A stretch of 64,000 nucleotides of DNA. Origin: Enteroscipio rubneri. Its GTDB lineage: Bacteria; Actinomycetota; Coriobacteriia; Coriobacteriales; Eggerthellaceae. The translations under genes were made by a program, and so were the position numbers. Location: NCBI RefSeq assembly GCF_002899715.1, contig NZ_PPEK01000001.1:496001-560000 (forward strand). Reading direction: 5' to 3'. Below, in pieces: positions 53,926 to 62,173 of this stretch. Every line of letters starts with the position of its first letter. Positions within the stretch are counted from its first letter, which is position 1. The notes beneath the pieces are model-generated. The model saw only the letters and a program-made list of their open reading frames with translations, ran no database searches and was not told the DNA's origin.

Positions 53926-54057
53926 GGTGACCCCCCTAGCTCTCACATCCATGGTACTAAAAACAAGCGGCTTTGTGCGAGGTGAGCGGCTCGCGGGCGG
54001 AAGCCGGCGTGTGTCGAGCTTTCGCTCGCCGCTCGTTTCCGCCGCTCGCCTCGTGAA

Positions 54058-54133
54058 GTTACGGAAATAGAGATCGTAACACCATGGGGCGCTGCCGTAT
54101 GCTATAGTGTGTTACGCAATGAAAAACCGTAAC
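54058..54133 (+). promoter_or_regulatory. twin GTTACG-N11-CGTAAC operators at the metal-transport promoter
   Basis: Site 1: GTTACG (54058-54063), 11 bases, CGTAAC (54075-54080). Site 2: GTTACG (54111-54116), 11 bases, CGTAAC (54128-54133). The centres are 53 bases apart, about five helical turns. A TATAGT -10 box lies between them at 54103-54108, so site 2 covers the expected transcription start and site 1 touches the -35 area. The arrangement suits a repressor, perhaps with looping. Confidence 0.72.
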
Positions 54134-54189
54134 AACTCAGATTGGTCGTGCGGTTCCGGTGCTTGCCGGAGCAGCGGCGAGGAGAGGTG

Positions 54190-55836
54190 AACATGGCTGT
54201 GATCACGCGACGCGATTTCGCGAAACTGGCAGGAGCGGGTGCGGCAACGCTTACGCTCGGCGGGCTGCTGTCCGGCTGCGCCAACAATTCGGAAAGCGAG
54301 GCGGTTCCGACTGCGACGGATTCCGGCGACGTCCCCAACGAGGTGATCGTGTCGATGACTCCCGGTTCCGAACCGGCCGCTGGCTTCGATCCGATGGTGT
54401 CGTGGGGCTGCGGCGAGCATGTGCACGAGCCGCTCATCCAGTCCACGCTCATCCGCACCACCGCGGAGCTTGCCTTCGAGAACGACCTGGCCACATCCTA
54501 CGAATGTTCCGATGACGGCCTGACGTGGACGTTCACCATACGCGACGATGCGAGGTTCACCGATGGCGAGCCCCTCACGGCGCGCGACGTGGCCTTCACC
54601 ATCAATGGCATCCGCAGCGCCGCAGCTTCCGAATGCGACCTCTCCATGGTGCGCGAGGCGACGGCGCCCGACGACGCTACGGTGGTCATCGCCATGGAGA
54701 AGCCGTTCAACGCCTTGCTCTATACCTTGGCCGTGGTGGGCATCGTGCCCGAGCACGCCTACGGCGAGGGCTACGGATCGAATCCCATCGGATCGGGTCG
54801 GTACATGCTCGACCAGTGGGACAAGGGCCAGCAGGTCATCTTGCGTGCCAACCCCGACTACTACGGAGAGGCGCCGAAGATGAAGCGTCTCGTCGCGGTG
54901 TTCATGGAAGAGGATGCCTCGCTCGCGGCTGCGCAGTCTGGCCAGGTGGACGTGGCCTATACTTCAGCCACATTCGCGGCGCAGCAGCCGGCGGGCTACG
55001 ACTTGCTGAACTGCGCGTCGGTGGACTCGCGCGGCATATCCCTGCCCGTCGTCCCCGCAGGCGCGTCCAAGACCGACGAGAAGGGCGACGCCGTCGCCGG
55101 CAACGACGTGACGTGCGATGTGGCTGTGCGTCGAGCCATCAACTACGGCGTGGACCGCGAGCGCATGATCGACAACGTGCTGAACGGCTTCGGCACCGTG
55201 GCCTATAGCGTGGGGGACGGCATGCCGTGGTCCTCGCCTGACATGGCGTGCGTCACCGACAAGGAGCTTGCGAACAAGCTGCTCGACGAAGGCGGCTGGA
55301 CTCCGGGTGCGGACGGCATCCGCGAAAAAGACGGCGTCCGCGCTTCCATGGATCTGTACTATTCGGCTGGCGACACCGTGCGCCAAGGCATTGCCGAGGA
55401 GTTTTCGAACCAGATGAAAGAGCTGGGACTCGAGTTTGCCGTTAAAGGCGTGAGCTGGGATGATCTGTATCCGCACCAGTTCAGCGATCCGGTGGTTTGG
55501 GGATGGGGGACGAACTCGCCCATCGAAACATATAACCTGTTCTACTCCAAAGGCTCAGGCAACTACGCCTGCTACGAGAACGCCTCGACCGATGCGTATC
55601 TCGATGAGGCGCTCGGCATGCCGCGTGTGGAGGATTCGTTCGAGCTGTGGAAGAAGGCGCAGTGGGACGGCTCGACCGGGTTTGCGCCGCAGGGCGACGC
55701 CCCGTGGGTATGGTTTGCGAACATCGACCATCTGTACTTCGCTAAGGAGAACCTGCGGGTGGCGGAGCAGAAGCCGCATCCGCACGGACATGGCTGGTCG
55801 CTCGTGAACAACGTCGACCAGTGGTCGTGGGCTTAG
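54190..55836 (+). CDS. Tat-exported lipoprotein, family 5 solute-binding protein (NikA/DppA-like)
   Basis: A 548-residue substrate-binding protein. The N-terminus has a Tat-type signal (TRRDFAKLAGAGAATLTLGG) ending in the lipobox LSGC, so it is exported folded and lipid-anchored. The SBP_bac_5 fold follows (DGLTWTFTIRDDARFTDGEPLTARDV, GSGRYMLDQWDKGQQVILRANPDYYG). In this family peptide, nickel and haem binders look alike, but the gene order (binder, two permeases, two ATPases), the operators upstream and the His-rich ATPase favour nickel or another metal chelate. The ATG at 54190 follows GAGGTG. A family A hairpin separates it from the first permease. Confidence 0.88.
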   Translation, partial: NMAVITRRDFAKLAGAGAATLTLGGLLSGCANNSESEAVPTATDSGDVPNEVIVSMTPGSEPAAGFDPMVSWGCGEHVHEPLIQSTLIRTTAELAFENDLATSYECSDDGLTWTFTIRDDARFTDGEPLTARDVAFTINGIRSAAASECDLSMVREATAPDDATVVIAMEKPFNALLYTLAVVGIVPEHAYGEGYGSNPIGSGRYMLDQWDKGQQVILRANPDYYGEAPKMKRLVAVFMEEDASLAAAQSGQVDVAYTSATFAAQQPAGYDLLNCASVDSRGISLPVVPAGASKTDEKGDAVAGNDVTCDVAVRRAINYGVDRERMIDNVLNGFGTVAYSVGDGMPWSSPDMACVTDKELANKLLDEGGWTPGADGIREKDGVRASMDLYYSAGDTVRQGIAEEFSNQMKELGLEFAVKGVSWDDLYPHQFSDPVVWGWGTNSPIETYNLFYSKGSGNYACYENASTDAYLDEALGMPRVEDSFELWKKAQWDGSTGFAPQGDAPWVWFANIDHLYFAKENLRVAEQKPHPHGHGWSLVNNVDQWSWA

Positions 55837-55966: not shown

Positions 55967-56071
55967 TGACTGGCGCGAACCTGCGGCGCGGCGGGGTCGG
56001 TCGGCGTTTTCCCTCGTTGAGGGGTGTTGTCGTCAGGTTTTCGGACAGGTGAGGTTATAGTAGTTTCCATC

Positions 56072-57055
56072 ATGCCTCGGTTCATCGCTCGGAACATAGT
56101 CAAATTCGTGCTGCTCCTGCTTGCGGTGAGCTTGGTCGCGTTTACGCTGGTGAGCGTATCTCCCATCGATCCGGTCCAGGCGAACGTGGGGCAGGCGGCG
56201 CTCGTGAACATGAGCGAGGCGAAGCGTGCGCAGCTCGCCGAGTACTGGGGCGCAAACACGCCGCTTTGGGAGCGCTATGCAAACTGGCTGACGGCGTTCG
56301 TGCAAGGCGATCTCGGTATGTCCTTGCGCTACAACGCGCCGGTTGCCGACGTCATCGCCGCGCGGGCGCTCAACTCGCTTGCGCTCATGGCGACGGCCTG
56401 GGCGGCGAGCGGTGTGCTGGGCTTTGCGCTCGGCATTCTGGCCGGTGCGAACCGCGGGCGTCTCGTCGATCGTATCGTGAAGGGGTACTGCTTTCTGCTG
56501 GCGTCCGTGCCCACGTTCTGGCTGGGACTCGTGTTCCTTGTCGTGTTCTCGGTGCAGCTCGGGTGGTTCCCGTTCGGCTTCTCCGTGCCCATCGGGGTGT
56601 CGGCCGCCGACGTGACGTTGGCCGACGCGCTGCACCATCTTGCGCTGCCGGCGCTCACGCTGTCGGTGGTGGGCGTGGCGAACATTGCGCTGCACACGCG
56701 CGAGAAGACCATCGACGTGCTGGAGAGCGACTACGTGCGCTTCGCCCGCGCCCGCGGGCTGTCCACCTGGGGCGTGCTGCGCCATCACGGACTGCGCAAC
56801 CTTGCGCTGCCGGCCATCACGCTGCAGTTTGCGTCCATCTCCGAGATATTCGGCGGATCGGTGCTGGTGGAGCAGGTGTTCTCGTACCCCGGCCTCGGTC
56901 AGGCGGCCGTTACGGCGGGTCTCGGCGGCGATGTGGCGCTTTTGGCTGGCATCGCCGTATTCTCGGCAGCCTTCGTGTTCGCCGGTAACTTCATAGCGAA
57001 CGTCCTGTACGGCGTCGTCGATCCGCGCATGCGGAAGGGGGCGGGCCGTGCGTAG
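56072..57055 (+). CDS. ABC transporter permease, NikB/DppB-like
   Basis: A 327-residue inner-membrane permease with six hydrophobic segments. The start (FIARNIVKFVLLLLAVSLVAFTLVSVSPIDPVQ) and the EAA-type loop (ESDYVRFARARGLSTWGVLRHHGLRNLALPAITL) are typical of the DppB/NikB group. The ATG at 56072 has no nearby ribosome site, and a TATAGT box ends 10 bases before it, so it may have its own nearly leaderless promoter. It overlaps the next permease gene by eight bases. Confidence 0.9.
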   Translation: MPRFIARNIVKFVLLLLAVSLVAFTLVSVSPIDPVQANVGQAALVNMSEAKRAQLAEYWGANTPLWERYANWLTAFVQGDLGMSLRYNAPVADVIAARALNSLALMATAWAASGVLGFALGILAGANRGRLVDRIVKGYCFLLASVPTFWLGLVFLVVFSVQLGWFPFGFSVPIGVSAADVTLADALHHLALPALTLSVVGVANIALHTREKTIDVLESDYVRFARARGLSTWGVLRHHGLRNLALPAITLQFASISEIFGGSVLVEQVFSYPGLGQAAVTAGLGGDVALLAGIAVFSAAFVFAGNFIANVLYGVVDPRMRKGAGRA

Positions 57056-57944
57056 CGAAAGAGAAATCTGTGAGACTTGCGACGGGGGCGCCTCCGCCTC
57101 CGTGCTTCATGCACCGCACGCAATCCGCATAGGCAACCGTCGGCTTACGCTGGGCGTGTTCGTGGCGGCCGTGGCGGCGCTGGCGGCGGTCGTTGCGGCG
57201 GGGATCGCGGCGGGGGATGCGGCAACGGCTACCGATTTTGCGCAGAAGAACCTTGCACCCAGCCTAGCTCACCCGTTCGGTACCGATTGGATGGGGCGGG
57301 ACATGCTGCTGCGCACGCTCGCGGGCCTTTCCACGAGCGTGCTCGTGGGGCTGTTGGCCGCGACGGCATCGGCCCTGATCGCTCTCGTGCTGGGAACGGT
57401 GGCAGCACTCGGCGGCAAGCGCGCCGACGCTGCAGTCACCTGGCTCATCGACCTCATGATGGGTGTGCCGCATATCGTGCTGCTCATCTTGATCTCGTTC
57501 GCTCTCGGCAAAGGATTCTGGGGTGTTGCCATCGGCGTAGCCGTGACGCATTGGCCAAGCCTTGCGCGCGTCGTTCGCGCCGAAGTTCTCCAGTGCAAAG
57601 AGGCGGCGTTCGTGTCCGTGGCGCGCAAGCTTGGACAGGGACCGGTGCGCGTCGCGACGCGCCATATGCTTCCCTACGTGCTGCCTCAGTTCATCGTGGG
57701 ACTCATCCTACTATTCCCCCATGCCATCCTTCATGAAGCTGCCATCACGTTCCTCGGATTCGGCCTGCCGCCCGAGCAGCCAGCTATCGGTGTCATCCTG
57801 AGCGAGTCGATGGCGTATCTGTCGGCCGGCATGTGGTGGCTCGCGGTGTTCCCGGGACTTGCGCTCGTCGCCGTCGTACTCCTGTTCGATGCGGCCGGTT
57901 CGAATCTGCGCAAGCTTGTCGATCCGCACAGTTCGCAGGACTAG
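57048..57944 (+). CDS. ABC transporter permease, NikC/DppC-like
   Basis: A 298-residue permease with a cytoplasmic N-terminus of about 28 residues (holding a Cys pair, CETCDGG), then helices and the DppC/NikC features HPFGTDWMGRDMLLRTLAGLSTSVLVGL and an EAA loop (CKEAAFVSVARKLGQGPVRVATRHMLPYVL). It starts with GTG 57048, seven bases after GAAGGGG and inside the end of the previous gene, so translation is coupled. The ATPase gene follows after nine bases. Confidence 0.9.
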   Translation: MRSEREICETCDGGASASVLHAPHAIRIGNRRLTLGVFVAAVAALAAVVAAGIAAGDAATATDFAQKNLAPSLAHPFGTDWMGRDMLLRTLAGLSTSVLVGLLAATASALIALVLGTVAALGGKRADAAVTWLIDLMMGVPHIVLLILISFALGKGFWGVAIGVAVTHWPSLARVVRAEVLQCKEAAFVSVARKLGQGPVRVATRHMLPYVLPQFIVGLILLFPHAILHEAAITFLGFGLPPEQPAIGVILSESMAYLSAGMWWLAVFPGLALVAVVLLFDAAGSNLRKLVDPHSSQD

Positions 57945-57953
57945 GAGGTTTCC

Positions 57954-58898
57954 GTGGGCGAAGCGAGCAAGACGAACCCTCTGTCTGCGATACCGGTCGG
58001 GCATGCGACGATCAAGCACGAGGATATGCAGGCGCATCACCACCATACGCACGCGCCGGTCTCGCGCCATGAGCACGGGCACCACGTGCTGCAGGTTGAG
58101 GATCTGAGCGTGGGTTTTCGCATGTACGAGGAAGATGTACCGTACTTTCGCGCGAAACAACGCGAAACGGAGGTCATCGATCGGCTGAACATCTCGGTGC
58201 ATGTGGGCGAAATCGTGGCGGTGGTGGGCGCGTCGGGATCTGGCAAAACGCTTGTAGCCGACGCCGTTCTGGGGCTGTTCGAGCCGAACGCCACGGTGCA
58301 CGGACGCATATGGTTCGACGGTGAGCTGCAGGACGCCGATTCTTTGCAGAAGCTGCGCGGACACGGCATCTCGCTGGTGCCGCAAAGCGTGAACAGCCTC
58401 GACCCGCTCATGAAGGTGGGCCGCCAGGTGGAAGGCTTCGCGCATCCAGACGAGTCGCACGCGGTGCGCCGGCGACGTCGCGAGAAGCTGTTTGCGCGCT
58501 ACGGCCTTTCGGAGGCGGTGGCCGGCATGTACCCCTTCGAACTGTCGGGTGGCATGGCGCGCCGTGTGTTGGTGTGCTGTGCGCTTATGGACGACCCGCG
58601 CGTCATCGTAGCCGACGAACCCACGCCCGGACTTGATCTGGAGCTTGCGGTGCGTGCGCTCGGCGATCTGAGGACGTTCGCCGACGAGGGCGGCGGCGTG
58701 CTGCTTATCACGCATGATATCGAGCTGGCTCTCCAGGTGGCGGACCGCGTGGCCGTGTTTGAGAACGGCACCGTGGTAGAGGAGACGGCGGTTGCGAACT
58801 TCGCGTCGCCCGACCTCCTGGAACACCCTTTCTCCCGTGCGCTGTGGCACGCGTTGCCGGAACACGACTTCCAAACGGGAGGAGGTTCGCCATGCTAG
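57954..58898 (+). CDS. ABC transporter ATPase, NikD/DppD-like, with His-rich N-terminus
   Basis: A 314-residue ATPase. Residues 17-44 hold 11 histidines (HEDMQAHHHHTH, then HEHGHH), placed before the nucleotide-binding domain. That domain has Walker A GASGSGKT near residue 94, a Q-loop QSVNSLDP, a signature LSGGMARR and Walker B VIVADEPTPGLD. The end (HPFSRALWHALP) is the oligopeptide/nickel C-terminal module, though without its usual CxxRC-type cysteines. The His cluster is not part of the standard fold and points to metal sensing or chaperoning. It starts with GTG 57954, after GGAGG, and overlaps the second ATPase gene by seven bases. Confidence 0.9.
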   Translation: MGEASKTNPLSAIPVGHATIKHEDMQAHHHHTHAPVSRHEHGHHVLQVEDLSVGFRMYEEDVPYFRAKQRETEVIDRLNISVHVGEIVAVVGASGSGKTLVADAVLGLFEPNATVHGRIWFDGELQDADSLQKLRGHGISLVPQSVNSLDPLMKVGRQVEGFAHPDESHAVRRRRREKLFARYGLSEAVAGMYPFELSGGMARRVLVCCALMDDPRVIVADEPTPGLDLELAVRALGDLRTFADEGGGVLLITHDIELALQVADRVAVFENGTVVEETAVANFASPDLLEHPFSRALWHALPEHDFQTGGGSPC

Positions 58899-59497
58899 AG
58901 GCGCGGGGCGTCTCGTTCAAGTACCCGGGGGCGAAGCGGCTGCTGTACGAGGGGTTCGATCTGGCGGTAGGGACCGACGAACGTGTGGCGCTTACCGCTC
59001 CGTCCGGATTCGGTAAGACCACGCTCTGTCGGATGCTTGCCGGATACGAGCGTCCGCAGGCAGGGAACGTGCTCGTCGATGGCGAGCCGCTACCGAGGCG
59101 CGGTACGTGCCCGGTGCAGCTGATCCTGCAGCATCCCGAAAAAGCCGTCGATCCGCGCATGCGCATGCGCGACACGCTGGCCGAAGCGGGGGAGGTGCCG
59201 CAGCGTCTGCTGGACGATCTGGGCATCCAGAAGCGATGGCTCGGGCGGTTTCCGCACGAACTGTCTGGGGGCGAGCTGCAACGTTTCTGCATCGCGCGGG
59301 CTTTAGCGGCGCACCCGCGCTATCTGGTTGCCGACGAGATATCAACGATGCTCGACGCCGTCACCCAAGCCCAGATCTGGCGATTTCTCGTGTCCGAGAC
59401 GCAGGCCTGCGGCATCGGGGTCGTGTTCGTGTCGCATTCGCCGGCGCTCACCGAGCGCATAGCCACGCGCGTGGTGGATCTCGCACGAACCGAATAG
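58892..59497 (+). CDS. ABC transporter ATPase, NikE/DppF-like
   Basis: A 201-residue ATPase, shorter than usual DppF/NikE (about 260-330) because the C-terminal module is absent. Walker A reads APSGFGKTT, the Q-loop LILQHPEKAVDP, the signature LSGGELQRFCIARAL and Walker B YLVADEIST (Glu and Ile where EP is common). The ATG at 58892 follows GGGAGGAGG and overlaps the previous stop. With the four genes before it, it completes a five-part uptake system. Confidence 0.88.
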   Translation: MLEARGVSFKYPGAKRLLYEGFDLAVGTDERVALTAPSGFGKTTLCRMLAGYERPQAGNVLVDGEPLPRRGTCPVQLILQHPEKAVDPRMRMRDTLAEAGEVPQRLLDDLGIQKRWLGRFPHELSGGELQRFCIARALAAHPRYLVADEISTMLDAVTQAQIWRFLVSETQACGIGVVFVSHSPALTERIATRVVDLARTE

Positions 59498-59563
59498 CGC
59501 CGCTTTGAGGCAGGCCGCGAGTGCCGCGGGATCTCGTACATCATCCGTCTGCATTATCTTTTG

Positions 59564-59592
59564 TTGACTATATACTAATAAAAGAATAATAT
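59564..59592 (+). promoter_or_regulatory. strong promoter of modA
   Basis: TTGACT (59564-59569), 17 bases, TAATAT (59587-59592), inside an unusually AT-rich stretch for this genome (59548-59594). The modA start is 85 bases downstream. Confidence 0.7.
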
Positions 59593-59677
59593 AATGGGCA
59601 ATTCGGACCAGTGCTGGCGGGGGATTCCCTCGGACGCATGCCGCGGCCCGATCAGGAGCGAGGGAAGGGATGTGCCC

Positions 59678-60622: not shown

Positions 60623-60668
60623 CAATGAAGGAGGATGGGAGGCCTGGCCTTTCCATCCTCCTTCATTG
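60623..60668 (+). other. 16-base-pair hairpin between modA and modB
   Basis: CAATGAAGGAGGATGG (60623-60638) and its perfect complement (60653-60668) form a 16-pair stem with a 14-base loop. There is no T tract. It may protect or separate the modA message from modB, as is common where the binding protein is needed in excess. Confidence 0.6.
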
Positions 60669-60745
60669 TGTATGATGGCATCGAACGTTGCTTTGCGCAT
60701 CGGCTCCATACGGAAGGCGCGAGCCGGGTCTTGGGGGTATCGAGA

Positions 60746-62173
60746 GTGGGAACAACACCGGGAACACGTTTTGGCGCTCTGCTGCTGGCCTTGTTGCTGG
60801 CATGCGCCGTCCTATGCCCCGCGACAGCGTTCGCCGTTGAAGGCGGGGAGGGCAACGTCGCTGCGGAAGCCCCGCTCGAAGATGCGAAGGATGCTTCAGC
60901 GGCTGCCATTAAAACGGCCTCCTCCGACGGCGTGGCCGTTTCGGCCGATGGGGAGGCTGCGCGCATCGACGGGGCATCCTTTGCGGTCGATGCGTTCTCC
61001 CGCGCGCAGAAGGGCTCGAACCGCGAGCTGGACGGCCGTTACCTTGGGTACAGCTACTATCAGGGTAGTTCGCCCGACTATGCAGTTGCCATTGCCACCG
61101 AGGACTACGTGCTGGTTTTTATCCCGCCTACGGCCCATGCCTTGTGCGACGCAGCCGATCCTGCTTCGCGAAACGACCTCAAGCGTTATTTCATCGCGCT
61201 CGACGCGGTGTCGCTTTCGGGCGGCGTCGTCATGGACGACGACGTGCCCTGGTACTTCACGAGTGAGTCGGGTTACGCGATGGGCGGCATCGTGTACGAC
61301 TTTGCCGTGGAGGCCGGCGAAAACCGCTATTTCGTCACTGCCATCGGCGAGGACGGCAACGATGTGGTATCTGCCGCCGTCGAGGGCGTTGCGCGTCCGA
61401 GCTACGTCGATTTCCTGAAGATCGTCGCGCCTGGCGCCGTCGACATCGCGCCGCCGGCCGAGGGCGTGCGGGCATTCGGCGAGTTCTTGCAGGGCATCGA
61501 TCTTTCGCCGCTCTGGGTGACGTTGCGCACCACCGGCACCGCCATCGTGATCATTTTCGTGCTGGGGCTCGCGGCTGCATACTTCGCCCTGCGCATCCCG
61601 AAGCGCGCGCAGGACGTCGCCGACGCTGTGTTCACTATCCCCATGGTGCTGCCGCCCACGGTCTGCGGCTTTCTGCTGCTGCTCGGCTTGGGAAACAACT
61701 CACCGGTGGGACGCTGGTTCATCGATGTGGGATTCCCGCTCATCTTCAGCTGGCCGGCTACGGTGATCGCCGCTGTCGTGGTTGCGTTTCCCCTCATGTA
61801 CCGCAGCGCGCGCGGCGCCTTTGAAGGGCTCGATCCGAACATGCTCGATGCGGCGCGCACGTTGGGGTGGTCGAATCGGAAGATTTTCTTTAAGCTGATG
61901 CTTCCGCTGTCGTGGTCGTCCATCGCGGCGGGCACGGTGCTCTCCTTTGCTCGCGCACTCGGCGAGTTCGGCGCGACGCTGTTTTTGGCAGGCAACTATG
62001 CGGGTATTACGCGCACCGTTCCCATTGCCATCTACTTCGAATGGATGAGCGGCAATATCGACGTCGCGCTGTTCTGGACAGCCGTCATTCTCGTTTTCAG
62101 TTTCGTGGTCATACTGTTCATCAACCTCTGGGGTAGGCGCACGACGAAGTACCGCAGGAGGACCGAAGAATGA
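60746..62173 (+). CDS. modB: ModB permease with an exported N-terminal domain
   Basis: A 475-residue protein. The last 220 residues (from about 256) are a normal ModB permease: LWVTLRTTGTAIVIIFVLGL, the EAA-like GLDPNMLDAARTLGWSNRKIFFKLMLPLS, then GEFGATLFLAGN. Before it comes a signal peptide or anchor (FGALLLALLLACAVLCPATAFA, residues 9-30) and about 215 residues predicted outside, with no recognised domain and two Cys-poor beta-rich halves (YAVAIATEDYVLVFIPP; MGGIVYDFAVEAGENRYFVTAIG). Known ModB proteins are about 220-230 residues. The start is set at GTG 60746 after GGGGG; the open frame extends to 60635. Confidence 0.85.
   Translation: MGTTPGTRFGALLLALLLACAVLCPATAFAVEGGEGNVAAEAPLEDAKDASAAAIKTASSDGVAVSADGEAARIDGASFAVDAFSRAQKGSNRELDGRYLGYSYYQGSSPDYAVAIATEDYVLVFIPPTAHALCDAADPASRNDLKRYFIALDAVSLSGGVVMDDDVPWYFTSESGYAMGGIVYDFAVEAGENRYFVTAIGEDGNDVVSAAVEGVARPSYVDFLKIVAPGAVDIAPPAEGVRAFGEFLQGIDLSPLWVTLRTTGTAIVIIFVLGLAAAYFALRIPKRAQDVADAVFTIPMVLPPTVCGFLLLLGLGNNSPVGRWFIDVGFPLIFSWPATVIAAVVVAFPLMYRSARGAFEGLDPNMLDAARTLGWSNRKIFFKLMLPLSWSSIAAGTVLSFARALGEFGATLFLAGNYAGITRTVPIAIYFEWMSGNIDVALFWTAVILVFSFVVILFINLWGRRTTKYRRRTEE

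Follow-up and report, generated by a model that had tools for sequence, protein, structure and literature searches.

Twin predicted NikR operators enclose the promoter of a nickel-type ABC transporter operon in Enteroscipio rubneri and other Eggerthellaceae

Results

An Opp/Nik-type transporter operon lies downstream of two palindromes. The window, that is, the whole 64-kb stretch of Enteroscipio rubneri DNA analyzed here, contains an ABC transporter operon that begins with a nikA-like substrate-binding protein (SBP) gene and is preceded by two inverted repeats (Table 1). The best NCBIfam match of the SBP is nikA (TIGR02294), under the cut-off of that model. Nickel is the probable substrate as judged from family membership, with the SBP below the curated nikA cut-off. 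No regulator gene was found among the identified neighboring genes of the operon, and a plasmid search returned short SBP-family matches only.

A molybdate transporter cluster follows further downstream. An AT-rich stretch ahead of modA (59540-59600) contains TTGACT ... TATAAT and, by eye, resembles a strong promoter of its own (near 59560-59595). Because modA seems to have this promoter, the molybdate transporter is probably outside the predicted NikR-controlled unit. The molybdate permease open reading frame (ORF; 60635-62173, 512 amino acids) is itself an unusual fused ModB: the ModB domain occupies about residues 294-502, and the N-terminal 290-residue region has a signal-like segment and is without a family match.

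Table 1. Features of the predicted operator region and of the operon
Feature	Position	Strand	Description
Operator 1 (upstream predicted NikR site)	54056..54082	+	AAGTTAC-N13-GTAACAC; 12/14 arm bases of delta-proteobacterial GTGTTAC-N13-GTAACAC
Operator 1 core	54058..54080		GTTACGGAAATAGAGATCGTAAC; zero mismatches to GTTACG-N11-CGTAAC (search of the 64-kb window)
Extended -10	54100..54108	+	TGC-TATAGT; abuts operator 2; without recognizable -35
TATAGT hexamer	54103..54108		Between both palindromes
Operator 2 (downstream predicted NikR site)	54109..54135	+	GTGTTAC-N13-GTAACAA; 13/14 arm bases of delta-proteobacterial GTGTTAC-N13-GTAACAC
Operator 2 core	54111..54133		GTTACGCAATGAAAAACCGTAAC; zero mismatches to GTTACG-N11-CGTAAC (search of the 64-kb window)
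SBP, Tat-type lipoprotein, SBP_bac_5 family, nikA-like	54193..55836	+	First operon gene; PF00496, E 1.8e-74
Opp/Nik-type ABC permease 1 (nikB-like)	56024..57055	+	Family match
Opp/Nik-type ABC permease 2 (nikC-like)	57048..57944	+	Family match
ABC ATPase 1	57954..58898	+	Best NCBIfam match NikD
ABC ATPase 2	58844..59497	+	Best NCBIfam matches NikE; overlaps ABC ATPase 1 gene

The palindromes are exact copies confined to a single promoter. Their centers (54069 and 54122) are 53 bp apart, and the original prediction, which had described two identical GTTACG-N11-CGTAAC repeats with this spacing on either side of TATAGT, proved accurate in each of these details. The symmetry extends past the 6-11-6 core to GTGTTACG-N11-CGTAACAC. 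High frequency of the motif at random genomic positions had been named as counterevidence and is not seen: GTTAC-N13-GTAAC has two matches in the entire 2.83 Mb, which are operators 1 and 2. A loose search of the same genome, with 3 mismatches allowed, is uninformative (211 matches versus 793 for the reversed control). The significance of the pair rests on two exact adjacent copies that are unique in the genome and conserved, rather than on the relaxed count in the window (3 sites with up to 2 mismatches, 1.36 expected).

The paired sites are conserved across Eggerthellaceae. Orthologs of the SBP are present in 99 of 137 Eggerthellaceae genomes, and 97 regions upstream of them were extracted and scanned. 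At least one site was found in 88 of these regions (60 twin, 28 single; 9 had none); the same scan on 4,850 Markov-randomized upstream sequences gave 3 single sites and 0 twins. By genus, twins occur in 24/39 and at least one site in 34/39. Absence of the motif before orthologous operons in close relatives, which the original prediction had named as counterevidence, is thus not what we see. In a scan of 84,980 species, we detected at least 116 paired-site loci among the matches listed, 22 of them with an orthologous SBP beside the pair; many of these listed loci contain regularly spaced repeats. In G052, a genome of the family set, the SBP gene occurs twice, and the second copy carries a single site of its own. 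Two genomes classified in separate genera, g7 and g24 (L117 of Candidatus Aphodovivens, which is G052:C8, and G023:C69), have twin-operator DNA that is identical, which may be due to contamination or recent transfer.

The two operators enclose an extended -10 promoter. In the conserved layout, the extended -10 element TGCTATAGT touches a near-perfect downstream operator (GTGTTACG...CGTAACAC among relatives), and the operator upstream of it is less perfect in its outer arm. This outer arm, usually AAGTTAC or GAGTTAC, is imperfect here and in most relatives, and given this imperfection operator 1 probably binds less strongly than operator 2. The centers of the two sites are 52-54 bp apart in 33 of the 60 twin promoters (these 33 come from 15 genera), and other twins have spacings of 38-46 bp (22), 50-51 bp (2), or 63-64 bp (2). 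Among the 33 promoters, the nine bases before operator 2 (-9 to -1) have the consensus TGcTATagT, and there is no -35 consensus. For the E. rubneri element, a plain sigma-70 scan, which needs a -35 match, found no promoter. The conserved feature is therefore the enclosure of an extended -10 promoter by two operators, not one helical phase. This layout, together with the conservation before orthologs, upholds the original reading of the palindromes as operators of a metal transporter that flank the -10.

The motif agrees with the NikR consensus of delta-proteobacteria. Delta-proteobacterial NikR operators, with the consensus GTGTTAC-[N13/14]-GTAACAC (Rodionov et al. 2004, PMC545781), have the same arms and the same N13 and likewise precede a nickel transporter in genomes with nikR (PMC545781). 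The original prediction, which had reported no NikR match, was right about the enterobacterial operator: GTATGA-N16-TCATAC has no match in the window with up to 2 mismatches. It was wrong about NikR as a whole, since the delta-proteobacterial consensus fits both sites (Table 1). Its suggestion that the regulator may be new is rejected, because the motif matches a known NikR consensus and the genome encodes one NikR, in which every Ni ligand is present. The Eggerthellaceae case differs from the delta-proteobacterial one in its host phylum (Actinomycetota), in its target (an Opp/Nik-type ABC transporter, versus nikMQO), in its R-S-A beta strand, and in that twins enclosing an extended -10 are the rule. 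A pair of NikR sites before one cluster is known from Desulfotalea, where they are 73 bp apart (-197 and -124) and have reversed half-sites (PMC545781, Table 4 therein).

Other known operators are less similar. The Helicobacter pylori NikR consensus, TRTTA-N15-TAWTA (PMC5385501), has identical half-site spacing, and TGTTA-N15-TAACA fits 9 of its 10 positions; the H. pylori sites are much more degenerate and serve many genes, with both activation and repression (PMC5385501). In Escherichia coli, a NikR with conserved Ni ligands likewise controls a Nik-type ABC importer (nikABCDE). The E. coli protein has an R-T-T beta strand, versus R-S-A here, and its one known operator has different arms. ModE operators are also inverted repeats before metal-related transporters, and a modABC cluster lies downstream in the window. 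Regardless, ModE was rejected, as the original prediction had done: by eye, the sites fit neither of the two ModE patterns, one ATCGNTATATA-N6-TATATANCGAT and the other CGGTCACG-N14-CGTGACCG (E. coli-type and Desulfovibrio-type among those cited; PMC545781), and modA seems to own a promoter.

A single NikR is encoded away from the operon. The gene (G000:C18:29424-29654, minus strand; L003:1480-1902 in the extracted locus) encodes a ribbon-helix-helix domain (PF01402) and a C-terminal Ni domain (PF08753, E 1.3e-28), and its product matches the NCBIfam equivalog NF003381 with 174 bits, versus a cut-off of 105. All four Ni ligands (H, HxH, C) align with those of the solved NikRs 1q5v, 2bj1, and 2ca9. 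The gene adjoins hypE, a [NiFe]-hydrogenase maturation gene (TIGR02124, 444.8 bits). Directly upstream of nikR, and on the same strand as nikR and hypE, which follow it, lies an 84-amino-acid ORF (L003:1915-2169, minus strand) that matches no NCBIfam model. NikR is present in 114 of 119 sampled Eggerthellaceae genomes, and in one family member, G026 (30 contigs, 92% complete), the sites occur and no NikR match was found.

The motif and the putative DNA-reading strand of NikR vary between groups. In a sample of the class, the strict motif TGTTAC-N13-GTAACA occurs in 54/76 genomes of the family (reversed control 7/76) and in 7/220 outside it (reversed control 13/220), and NikR occurs in 74/76 and 104/220, respectively. 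The presence of NikR is thus not enough to predict that of the motif. The putative beta strand is R-F-S-[VI]-A in all 31 family NikRs read, R-F-S-V-T in most proteins of f3 (another family of the order), and R-F-G-[VI]-S in several others. Genomes of f3 have NikR and lack the strict motif; their operator may differ, as their beta strand ends in T, not A. The NikR of a further genome (G249) has an R-G-S strand, and the same motif precedes a Nik-type SBP there. These differences fit a diverging operator preference, short of proof.

The motif precedes further nickel-type transporter genes. In relatives, copies outside this operon are found before CbiM/NikM-type transporters (L387, L389) and before BtuF-like metal-transport SBPs of PF01497 (L380, L383, L385). 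Three genomes from other families have it before a Nik-type SBP (L377-L379). Some single matches (L381, L382, L386) stand before genes that have no evident connection to nickel, and these may be due to chance.

Discussion

The twin palindromes are very probably a pair of NikR operators that follow the GTGTTAC-N13-GTAACAC pattern, and they are predicted from sequence comparison to govern an Opp/Nik-type ABC operon for nickel uptake. The sites, the promoter element, their conservation, the NikR gene with its ligands, and the nickel-type targets of the motif in relatives point to NikR as the binding protein, and we infer that it represses and may bind cooperatively. When nickel is plentiful, a Ni-loaded NikR tetramer (ribbon-helix-helix plus ACT-like Ni domain) would bind both operators. 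Operator 2, which abuts the extended -10, would be expected to cover the transcription start, predicted at about 54115 within this operator, while operator 1, which ends ~20 bp upstream of the -10, would cover the -35 region. With the promoter enclosed by both, RNA polymerase would be excluded and nickel uptake switched off. Operator 2 would be the stronger site. Operator 1, being weaker on account of its imperfect outer arm, would probably need either more nickel or cooperation with the other site to become occupied. Two-operator repression by NikR is plausibly cooperative; cooperative binding of NikR tetramers has reportedly been seen for Geobacter NikR in the work of Benanti and Chivers. 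More tentatively, and with some doubt on our part, Eggerthellaceae might have a dedicated NikR switch, in which the extended -10 promoter has its start covered by a strong site and its -35 region by one that is weak by design, and two tetramers fill them cooperatively to give a steep nickel response, the R-S-A strand reading GTGTTAC.

Short palindromes arise randomly, and the relaxed search of the window did return more sites than expected, as would suit sites that are due to chance or derived from repeats and have no regulatory role. The probability of this is negligible: the motif is confined to one promoter in 2.83 Mb, 60 of the 97 orthologous promoters keep its position but vary in their spacer bases, and none of the randomized sequences carries a twin. 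The conservation test had already ruled out a chance or repeat origin. There is somewhat more room for a different, uncharacterized metal-responsive regulator whose site resembles the delta-proteobacterial NikR motif by coincidence. The distance of nikR from the operon, the family genome with sites and no NikR match, and the f3 genomes with NikR and no motif would all be compatible with such a protein. It is nevertheless quite improbable, since sequence and spacing agree exactly with the published NikR consensus, NikR is near-universal in Eggerthellaceae, the motif precedes three nickel/cobalt-type transporter types in relatives, and the identified operon neighbors include no regulator gene.

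A further possibility concerns how NikR itself would act at the two sites. The original prediction placed them five helical turns apart, and 53 bp does correspond to 5.05 turns, so that two NikR tetramers on the same helix face could interact and, by bending the promoter, close it into a complex. The recurrence of 52-54 bp in 15 genera, with four turns (41-44 bp) or six (63-64 bp) in further genera, is in keeping with such a looping or bridging device. However, off-phase spacings occur (46 bp in genus g6; 38-40 bp in g21, g47, and g48), genera are non-independent samples, 28/97 promoters have a single recognizable site, and simple promoter occlusion accounts for the layout. Looping therefore seems unlikely to us. 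Strict helical phasing is ruled out as a universal feature by the spread of spacings among genera, 38 to 64 bp. The "five turns" thus hold for the 52-54 bp group, but the other spacings leave strict phasing and looping as not established.

NikR is a known regulator family. What is apparently unreported is a NikR regulon in this actinomycetotal family of the gut, with its conserved arrangement of two operators; our literature search found no paper on NikR in Eggerthellaceae. The only unusual element is the recurrent two-operator layout. The analysis replaces the suggestion of a new regulator. For a gut Eggerthellaceae transporter whose substrate, peptide or nickel, is ambiguous by family models, it supplies both a probable regulator and a probable metal. 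The nickel regulon of this family can also now be searched for by its motif. Furthermore, the approximately 60 paired promoters, with their varied spacings, are a natural set for probing cooperation between NikR tetramers.

Family members also contain loci at which the motif stands before genes other than the nikA-like SBP. At five of them (L380, L383, L384, L385, and L396), GTGTTAC-N13-GTAACAC lies near the start of a BtuF-like (PF01497) SBP or related ABC-ATPase locus. These loci are candidates for a NikR-controlled nickel importer of metallophore or cobalamin type. At another locus (L382:1003-3045, minus strand), a site lies 21 bp before the gene for an NADH-dehydrogenase/hydrogenase-4-like membrane subunit, which could mean that NikR controls a membrane hydrogenase or could be a match by chance.
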